NCBI RefSeq assembly: GCF_900107995.1
Contig: NZ_FNUM01000003.1
Coordinates: 310,001-374,000 of the forward strand
Direction of reading: 5' to 3'
DNA length: 64,000 bases
From: Alcanivorax sp. DSM 26293
GTDB lineage: Bacteria; Pseudomonadota; Gammaproteobacteria; Pseudomonadales; Alcanivoracaceae
The number at the start of each line of letters is the position of its first letter. Position 1 is the stretch's first letter. Shown one piece after another: positions 42,902-45,014 of the stretch. The translations under genes and the position numbers were made by a program. The notes beneath the pieces are model-generated. The model saw only the letters and a list, made by a program, of their open reading frames with translations, was not told the DNA's origin and did not search any database.

Positions 42902-42952
42902 ATCAGGTCTTGTCTTTTACTGCTTGGGGCACGGGGCAAGACCTGACCCCAA
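42902..42952. repeat. GGGGTCAGG palindrome, left copy
   Basis: ATCAGGTCTTGTC (42902-42914) and GCAAGACCTGACCCCAA (42936-42952) form an imperfect hairpin. The right part is the exact reverse complement of TTGGGGTCAGGTCTTGC at 43967-43983. The GGGGTCAGGTCTTGC motif is often found beside Y1-type transposase (RAYT-like) genes. Here it interrupts a truncated cassette gene. Confidence 0.7.
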
Positions 42953-43027
42953 GTCTCTCATATCTATAAGCCACACCCCCATGGCTGCCAGGGCAAACGC
43001 GATTACTAAACCTATACTCAATTTCAT
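42917..43027 (-). pseudogene. truncated second integron cassette gene
   Basis: Immediately after the attC cleavage point (minus strand, 12 bp into the next unit) an ATG opens a 36-codon frame. It begins MKLSIGLVIAFALAAMGVWL and is clearly the first membrane helix of a small membrane protein. The frame then enters the GGGGTCAGG element and stops. The start of a second cassette, cut off by a repeat, is the simplest reading. There is no evidence that it is expressed. Confidence 0.55.
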
Positions 43028-43033
43028 AGCGAC

Positions 43034-43093
43034 ACTTAACGCTTGCAGCAGGGGCGCGACGCCAGGAGCGTCCCTTGCCTGCACTTGTTAGCG
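43034..43093 (-). other. integron attC recombination site (60 bp)
   Basis: Read on the minus strand: R'' box CGCTAAC (43093-43087), arms TGCAG...CTGCA with imperfect pairing between, then GCAAGC and R' box GTTAAGT (43040-43034), which fits G^TTRRRY. The length is 60 bp, as for classic 59-base elements. The R'' core departs from consensus RYYYAAC, but it is the exact complement of GTTAGCG at the cassette's other boundary, as expected of a cassette excised as a circle. The TAA stop of the gene lies within R''. Confidence 0.8.
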
Positions 43094-43741
43094 TAGTGTC
43101 TCATTTATTTTTTCACCGAACTGGATAGATTGAGTTCGATGCCGTTTAACAATCGAAATTAGTTCCACATCACGAACTTCAGGAAATAACTGATCCCTGT
43201 AGCTAAACGCCTTGAAATTTACGCCGTGGAAAAATCCGTCTTCCATCGAGAGTTGGTAGTTAGGCTTCACCAGGTGTATGTGCTTTATGGTGTTCGTGAA
43301 TGCCTTGATATATTTACTTTCGTCAGAGCGGATCAAGGTTTCGAATGCCTCCCTCAAGAGACCCGGCTTCATCCTTTTCATTACCTTGCCTGACGTCACA
43401 TCGTTAACCTTTAGGCGGTTCGATAAAGATACGACGTTAAGGACTTGCGCCAGTACGTCAGGTAGCGTGTTCGCCATCATCACAGCTGATGCTAGCGAAA
43501 ATTCCCTAATTCTTGTCGCTATCTGAAACTTATCATCTTGCGAAAACAGCTTCTTAGTTATCTGTGCTTCATTCATCTCGGCATATGGTTTGAAGCATTC
43601 ATCTGCCTGAAGCAAATGATAATACGTCGCTTTACTCTTCCAATCGAAAGAATCGAGAAACTCAATAAGCTCCTTTTTCTCAGCATCATTAAGAAAAACG
43701 GCGGCCTTCTCTCGAAGTTCCTTTAGATTCCAACTCGCCAT
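43088..43741 (-). CDS. integron cassette gene of unknown function
   Basis: A 217-residue soluble, lysine-rich helical protein (MASWNLKELREKAAVFLNDA). Further in are KKLFSQDDKFQIATRIREFS and GFFHGVNFKAFSYRD. No signal peptide, membrane segment or recognised domain is seen. The gene is visibly lower in GC than its neighbours and uses AT-rich codons. Its TAA stop lies in the attC site, and the unit starts at a G^TTAGCG core 10 bp before the ATG on the minus strand. A GTG two codons upstream (43747) is an alternative start. There is no integrase nearby, so it is an orphan cassette. Confidence 0.7.
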   Translation of the reverse strand: MASWNLKELREKAAVFLNDAEKKELIEFLDSFDWKSKATYYHLLQADECFKPYAEMNEAQITKKLFSQDDKFQIATRIREFSLASAVMMANTLPDVLAQVLNVVSLSNRLKVNDVTSGKVMKRMKPGLLREAFETLIRSDESKYIKAFTNTIKHIHLVKPNYQLSMEDGFFHGVNFKAFSYRDQLFPEVRDVELISIVKRHRTQSIQFGEKINETLR

Positions 43742-43750
43742 ATTCACTAC

Positions 43751-43757
43751 CGCTAAC
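43751..43757 (-). other. cassette left boundary (core GTTAGCG), with a decayed attC-like stretch upstream
   Basis: On the minus strand G^TTAGCG (43757-43751) marks where the 717-bp cassette would begin. The stretch 43751-43821 ahead of it can be read as a degenerate attC: ATTTAAT in place of R'', AATTGTGATATGAAGCC and GGGCTTCCTAATACC as imperfect arms, and this core as R'. The boundary itself is better supported than the decayed attC. Confidence 0.6.
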
Positions 43758-43966
43758 AGGTATTAGGAAGCCCGCTCGAATATCCAATGAACGCGCCGGC
43801 TTCATATCACAATTATTAAATTTGCATATCGAAACATAAAAGCAGAAAAGTCAGTCAGTTACAAACCGGTCGGTTTACGCATGATTCAATATGTTGACCT
43901 CTTCTTTTCCCTGACCCAATAACACTGATCATAAAGACAGAGTGATTGAGAATAGGCTCCAAAAAT

Positions 43967-44022
43967 TTGGGGTCAGGTCTTGCACTGTGAATGAGTGCAA
44001 CATTAAAAAGGTATCTGACCCC
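43967..44022. repeat. GGGGTCAGG palindrome, right copy
   Basis: TTGGGGTCAGGTCTTGC at 43967-43983 faces CTGACCCC at 44015-44022. The first 17 bp are a perfect inverted match to the left copy about 1 kb away, so the two copies bracket the cassette unit. Confidence 0.7.
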
Positions 44023-44040: not shown

Positions 44041-44448
44041 TCAACCAATCAAAGTGTCCTTGAAGTTGAACCAAGCCCAAAGGGCAAATAACATATAAAC
44101 CGCTATCATGATATTGGCTTTTTTTCCTTTTACCTTTGTTCTTTTGGGCTTCACTGACGCAATCGAGTCTCCTCCCCGAACAATGTCCAGCTCGTAATAT
44201 CCGTAACCCAGCCTCCGAATGACATCCACAGATTCACCATGAATTTCAAATGAAAACTTATCCCCCATAGACTCCGACACCCTGACCCCATCAACATAGA
44301 GAATCTTATTTTCAGAGGACGAAGAATAGGCCACTATCCATTCATATCCTTCAACTTTATAGATGTCATAGGCCCAACCATCAGGAATATCGGGCTGTTG
44401 GTTCCCCACCACCTCAGAAACTTCGTAGACATTTTTTTCGTTATCCAT
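44041..44448 (-). CDS. hypothetical protein with C-terminal membrane helix
   Basis: A 135-residue protein (start MDNEKNVYEVSEVVGNQQPD). Residues 1-105 look like a small beta-rich domain (GWAYDIYKVEGYEWIVAYSS, YVDGVRVSESMGDKFSFEIH). After a lysine-rich linker (KPKRTKVKGKKA), one C-terminal helix follows (IMIAVYMLFALWAWFNF). Topology is probably soluble domain in the cytoplasm with a tail anchor. AT-rich composition unlike its surroundings marks it as foreign. A longer frame to 44502 adds 18 residues. No family is recognised. No attC is seen right after it, so it is not proven to be a cassette. Confidence 0.5.
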   Translation of the reverse strand: MDNEKNVYEVSEVVGNQQPDIPDGWAYDIYKVEGYEWIVAYSSSSENKILYVDGVRVSESMGDKFSFEIHGESVDVIRRLGYGYYELDIVRGGDSIASVKPKRTKVKGKKANIMIAVYMLFALWAWFNFKDTLIG

Positions 44449-44502
44449 AAATACTTTTCCTTCTGAAACCGGGCTCAGATACTCTTTTGACGTACAAGCC
44501 AC

Positions 44503-45014
44503 TCTATCGATACTGCTACCTTAAAGGGCTGCACTGATTTCAATACACCATAAAGTCAGCTTAATCAGCTTTAGCACACTCGCGCCCACGACGGCTTTCG
44601 GTTCAGCTCACGCTGTTCTGGATGTTAGACCATGGTGTTTATTGTTGGACTTTGATGCTTGGCAGCCATGCTAGGCACGCACAACGCCTTTCTTGCAGCA
44701 CCAAATCAGAAAATTCACTTTATCTCAGCAACTTACAAAAATATGTAAGCCATATCCTACATATTCAACTTGCGCGCGGGTGAAAAACGGCGGGATGGCG
44801 AGCAAAAAAGGGGAGGGACATCGGCAAACTGACAACCAGACATTCAACGGTCATCAACGCCTGCACTGAAAAGGGATTGGGGGATGGGTTATTAGCGGGG
44901 TAAAGTTTGGCGCATTCACCACAGAGGGCAGAGAGAAAAGAAGGTTTTCCTCCGTGTTCTCTGTGTCCTCGTGGTAAGACCGTTTTTATAACGGCAGCGG
45001 GAGGGGAAGGGCCC
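44503..45014. other. 512-bp gap without a supported gene
   Basis: This stretch is AT-rich in its first half. It contains GTCTAAC on the minus strand near 44630, matching an attC R'' box, but no convincing R' partner. At 44917-44976 there is an imperfect palindrome of the type CACCACAGAGG...CTCTGTGTCCTCGTGGT, which occurs between genes in many bacteria. No open frame has a credible start and pattern. Confidence 0.5.
44917..44976. repeat. CCACAGAGG...CCTCGTGG palindromic repeat
   Basis: CACCACAGAGGGCAGAGAG and a matching inverse with CTCTGTGTCCTCGTGGTA form an imperfect 60-bp inverted repeat with an AGAAGGTTTTCC centre. It lies 39 bp downstream of the TetR gene (which is on the minus strand) and may act as its terminator. 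Confidence 0.5.

Follow-up and report, generated by a model that had tools for sequence, protein, structure and literature searches.

Integrons are usually described as one platform, typically with one attI site next to its integrase gene (PMC9024848). Outside class 1, attI sites are poorly described and are not searched for by default (PMC9024848). Integrase-less cassette arrays, or CALINs, are viewed as degraded integrons, off-target insertions or the result of rearrangements (PMC9024848, PMC8618304). In Xanthomonas, CALIN cassettes are reported to be mobilised in trans and CALINs to occupy conserved places (PMC12444791). Fragments of attI within cassettes are known from mobile integrons (PMC12901181). 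The literature searched, most of it outside subscription journals, contained no report of genomes with many attI sites that lack an intI gene. The locus described here is part of a 64-kb stretch of Alcanivorax DNA, referred to as the window, and consists of a gene cassette, the start of another and the DNA that precedes them.

Cassettes and attC site

On the minus strand from 43869 to 42960, the locus reads attI, cassette 1 and the start of cassette 2, which is cut off. Cassette 1 (43040-43756, minus strand) starts with the TT of G^TTAGCGG and ends on the G of the R' box in its attC, and its ends are reverse-complementary. The cassette gene proposed by the sequence-only reading of this DNA, a minus-strand open frame of 217 aa at 43088-43741, is indeed present. 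The attC site of cassette 1 is 60 bp long (CGCTAACAAGTGCAGGCAAGGGACGCTCCTGGCGTCGCGCCCCTGCTGCAAGCGTTAAGT in minus-strand letters) and consists of positions 43034-43093, with the R'' box CGCTAAC at 43087-43093 and the R' box GTTAAGT at 43034-43040. Arm pairing alone lacked selectivity as a criterion for attC sites; instead, a covariance model (R2) was trained on 31 attC sites in related genomes, with the window attC left out. R2 returned exactly the positions that had been claimed for the attC (minus strand, 41.0 bits, E 8.6e-7). The runner-up in the whole 64 kb scored 11.5 bits (E 1.5), making the window attC unique.

The cassette boundary, CCTG^TTAGCGG, is located at 43757|43756. As the sequence-only reading had stated, the boundary core GTTAGCG and the R'' box are exact reverse complements; this extends over 7 bases, and the 8th base is mismatched. 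In an array of Marinobacter azerbaijanicus (L047), DNA likeness to cassette 1 (81%) stops at 43757, at the same G^TT. The R'' box had also been singled out for departing from the RYYYAAC consensus; it is one base off, but this is nothing unusual here, as the first-cassette attC sites of relatives often miss the consensus too (TGCTAAC, CCCTAAC and TTCTAAC, among many). Judged by its attC and matching ends, the window unit is a genuine integron gene cassette.

The cassette is not solitary, as had been thought. It is followed by the start of a second cassette (42960-43039, minus strand), the gene of which begins GTTAAGTGTCGCT-ATG past the attC of cassette 1, with the ATG at 43027. The DNA at 42960-43073 is 92% identical to genome G002, where the counterpart of cassette 2 is an intact 104-aa gene (L048, 1900-2214). 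In the window, cassette 2 ends abruptly near a GGGGTCAGGTCTTGC-type repeat. Read from the sequence, inverted copies of this repeat, GCAAGACCTGACCCC at 42936-42950 (plus strand) and GGGGTCAGGTCTTGC at 43969-43983, bracket the platform, and cassette 2 stops at the former.

Cassette protein

No Pfam or NCBIfam family matches the 217-aa product above its cut-off, and PADLOC contains no match either. The sequence-only reading, too, had recognised no family for it, but the protein does match phrog_37823, a phage family of unknown function, over its whole length (E 5.6e-13). A weak match was found to a gene of Pseudomonas phage vB_PstS-pAN (25% identity, E 7e-4). This distant homologue, pAN_27 (MW651859.1; L288, 3983-4723), is located immediately after the phage integrase gene. 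A role as a phage-related accessory protein is a guess. The M. azerbaijanicus array encodes a protein that is 78% identical. The sequence-only reading would have been refuted by the presence of the cassette gene elsewhere in the genus as a core gene without attC; the other 16 genomes of the genus that were searched lack the gene, which is therefore not a core gene. Searches of plasmids with the protein gave no match, those of viral contigs no relative and those of solved structures nothing meaningful; its AlphaFold model (mean pLDDT 32.6) is unusable.

The attI site

Cassette 1 is preceded by a type-A attI site at 43754-43869 on the minus strand (116-bp model), with the crossover G^TT at 43757|43756. 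A type-A attI model (R1), generated from 18 copies elsewhere with the window copy excluded, scores the site at 136.5 bits (E 5e-20), and conservation is highest in the ~52 bp that precede GTT (about 43758-43809). The platform has an upstream extension (43870-43961, minus strand) that is found also in the closest copies. Sister species contain further copies of the DNA before the boundary (43754-43961); the platform displays 90-94% identity with the same locus in G001, G003, G007 and G012 until 43955-43961.

The 18 attI-A copies first inspected have a different sequence after GTTA in each, usually a gene and an attC. In G003 and G005, 202-214 bp separate the attI-A element from the start of an intact intI gene. 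In G006, the element lies by an interrupted platform in which the remaining intI starts about 1.5 kb off, and at six further copies 25-147 aa of the intI N-terminus remain at a comparable distance. By this homology, the DNA preceding cassette 1 is an attI, related to the attI sites of intI-bearing integrons, and for this reason a plain CALIN is not supported. The sequence-only reading had called it CALIN-type, which is apt insofar as an attC is present without a neighbouring intI, but takes no account of the attI at the head of the array.

Within the family, R1 detected attI-A in 28 of 46 genomes; in a sample of 294 genomes of the order, no further family had the element. Scanning the attI region for promoters gave one match against 1.1 expected, and a plasmid search with attI types A and B gave none.

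The upstream part of a type-D attI platform is present at 44689-44790 (minus strand), beside a TetR gene. It aligns with the attI-D sites of G006, of G013 and of contig C22 of the genome studied here; the platform is multi-copy in the genus, and its core was not found at this position. The presence of an attI-D remnant and an attI-A in the same spot suggests that this intergenic spot has held two different attI platforms. Between the two lies a 153-aa ORF (44041-44502, minus strand) without a family match, and no attC was recognised behind it.

Integrase genes

No intI similarity is found within 2.1 kb upstream of the window attI, and the locus does not constitute a complete integron. None of the intI matches of the genome lies inside the 64-kb window. 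The absence of an integrase, as previously asserted, is correct for this neighbourhood but not for the contig. The whole-genome search identified one over-cutoff IntI (C13:100848-101786, 388 bits), and this intact intI gene is on the contig that contains the window, at a distance of 252 kb, and has an attI and a short array of its own. Its product contains what we take to be the catalytic residues of tyrosine recombinases. This IntI is of type B and is 46% identical to the type-A IntI that adjoins attI-A elsewhere. Cassette 1 of its array follows the same matching rule, with R'' AGCTAAC and start GTTAGCT. In this main integron, the second cassette has its attC interrupted by an IS3-like element with split frames (L015, 16180-17404).

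Across the genus, 13 of 17 genomes have one over-cutoff IntI each, and the other four have none; an assembly gap may be responsible. Many of the relatives are drafts. Where tested, the over-cutoff IntI adjoins a gcvPB-like gene that is 95-99% identical between species. This same gene adjoins the main integron for IntI of all three types, A, B and C (L001, L068, L076 and others). Type-A IntI is 46-50% identical to the other types. It is as if the integrase at the gcvPB-like gene had been swapped at a fixed place.

Diversity of attI sites in the genus

The 17 genus genomes harbor 139 attI sites of four types (26 A, 42 B, 38 C and 33 D, without overlaps), counts that take in degenerate copies. 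The number per genome ranges from 4 to 12, with at most one intact integrase. Only 13 of the 139 sites lie less than 2 kb from an over-cutoff intI, and the remaining 126 are orphans. Each of the 13 over-cutoff intI genes has one A, B or C site within 2 kb; no type-D site was seen beside any intI in the 17 genomes. Type B is the attI of this genome's own IntI. The genome contains nine attI-type sites covering types A-D, one of which adjoins the intact intI. Some are degenerate: C22:141276 is without GTT, and C14:428 reads GTTC.

Many B, C and D copies are alike only over the last ~50 bp before GTT. For type A, the mean ungapped pairwise identity in the genus is 0.84 over the last 52 bp, 0.64 over the next 52 and 0.50 beyond; the corresponding values for type B are 0.80 as against 0.36 and 0.53. 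At its main site, this genome has a type-B core whose 52 bp recur unchanged at orphan sites in G003, G007 and G013, genomes in which the protein-coding flanks of the window locus are about 80-93% identical. Pairs of attI sites 0.5-9.4 kb apart occur at G015:C1:2636836-2637570 (one type B and one type A), G004:C1:2056832-2063028 and G006:C1:1097195-1106821.

Matching ends were assessed by taking 7 bases from the GTT of each attI site and seeking their reverse complement as the R'' box of the first cassette's attC. Matches are present at 41 of 60 type-A and 31 of 41 type-B sites, and at 14 of 17 type-C and 8 of 9 type-D sites, the last two types being limited to sites with a legible core in the loci examined. 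In 1000 shuffles, the means were 6.1 (A), 7.4 (B), 2.6 (C) and 1.4 (D), with maxima of 15, 14, 7 and 5. With all types pooled, 94 of the 127 checked sites match, compared with about 17 expected by shuffling; about a quarter of the scored sites have no recognisable matching-end cassette. The compensation between cassette ends to which the sequence-only reading drew attention is therefore not only right but general across related sites.

Cassette turnover after loss of intI

In seven species, the window locus can be followed between two convergent genes, with aligned ends some 50-280 bp apart. The attI at this locus is type A in G000, G001, G003, G007 and G012 and type D in G006 and G013, where it carries other cassettes. 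G001, G003 and G007 have a common scar in which intI is cut after about nine codons, and their flanking DNA is 82-93% identical to that of the window. At the scarred locus, G001 carries genes of 203 and 352 aa, G003 a cassette for an HNH protein among others, and G007 five genes. Only two of the first cassettes are related, with proteins that are 30% identical. One scar combined with differing cassettes indicates that the arrays changed after intI was gone.

Two cassettes connect different sites. A 91-aa cassette occupies the first position next to intI in G003 and G013 and the fifth at the orphan site of G007, and a 120-aa cassette is 97.5% identical between a type-A orphan site in G013 and a type-B orphan site in G002. 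As judged from such sequences, the cassette pool is common to intI-bearing and orphan attI sites. The turnover would most simply be explained by loading of the scarred orphan attI in trans. Among the species that share the scar, homologous recombination between the flanks could have transferred whole arrays; arrays exchanged in this way would still need to have been loaded earlier, somewhere with a scarred attI.

Origin of the locus

The locus is probably an orphan attI-A platform, holding one complete and one truncated cassette, that was loaded in trans. Under this model, IntI made elsewhere in the cell would act on excised circular cassettes, with the attC folded as a single strand. Recombination at G^TT would join the circles to the orphan attI, a double-stranded site, and the orphan locus would thereby gain and change cassettes. 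From the comparisons above, we infer that IntI acts in trans on the window attI-A. Counting against this are the genome's own IntI, which is type B rather than the type A found with such sites, the quarter of sites without a recognisable matching-end cassette and the four genomes without an over-cutoff intI. The window attI-A is presumably still usable, and an intI gene presumably stood at the locus and has since been lost.

Part of this history would also fit the usual view of CALINs, a dead relic, in which complete integrons were stripped of intI and what is left of attI and cassettes is in decay. Remnants of the intI N-terminus at several sites, the truncated cassette 2 of the window and the degenerate attI copies of this genome (C14:428 and C22:141276) are what such decay would leave. 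We nevertheless regard the relic as unlikely, because G001, G003 and G007 have a common scar yet differing cassettes, the attI core is far better conserved than its surroundings, and 52 identical bases recur at unlinked sites in three species. The upstream element might instead be an ORF-less cassette or attC-like site travelling ahead of other cassettes, given its strong hairpin and the TAAC about 58 bp before GTTA in some copies. It is the right end that is kept across copies and not the TAAC, the element stands in the attI position by intact intI, and types B and C, likewise attI sites of intact intI genes, behave alike; this interpretation is very improbable. Lower still is the probability that the cassette was inserted off-target in a chance secondary (attG) site. 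IntI is present elsewhere in the genome, and the route is documented in work cited in PMC12901181. The reading was dropped because the upstream repeat turned out to be attI: the insertion target is homologous to attI at 136.5 bits, and the same element adjoins intact intI.

A broader and more tentative proposal is a distributed integron, which we consider possible but somewhat less than probable. In such an integron, one IntI per genome would serve 4-12 attI sites of four types that have been multiplied and selected for use in trans, and several cassettes would hold the first position at once. One enzyme may thus load genes into many chromosomal places. If most integrase-less arrays of a genus begin at real attI sites, the apparent leftovers would be extra docking stations, the conserved positions of these arrays would be explained, and several-fold more places would be available for a first-position cassette.

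Comparison with known systems

Cassettes inserted at attG sites also lie far from the integron, with IntI at a distance, but the target described there is neither attI nor attC, whereas here it is an attI homologue (Loot et al. 2024, as cited in PMC12901181). Delta-attI-type cassettes (PMC12901181) likewise display attI sequence away from its usual place by intI. In those cassettes the attI fragment forms a cassette end in one array, whereas here attI heads separate chromosomal arrays. The Xanthomonas CALINs share with the present case integrase-less arrays at fixed places in several species and one main intI locus; the accessible part of that report describes no attI, whereas here an attI would explain the fixed place (PMC12444791). 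As in CALINs generally (PMC9024848, PMC8618304), cassettes with attC are present and the integrase gene is not nearby. The window array differs in being headed by a recognisable attI and in having one attC, as against the IntegronFinder 2 default of two for a CALIN (PMC9024848). The sedentary chromosomal integron has the same parts, namely attI, a G^TT crossover and attC cassettes, and the same attI types adjoin intact intI genes in the genus. Unlike that system, the locus has no intI in cis, and the genome has several attI sites, of which this platform is one.
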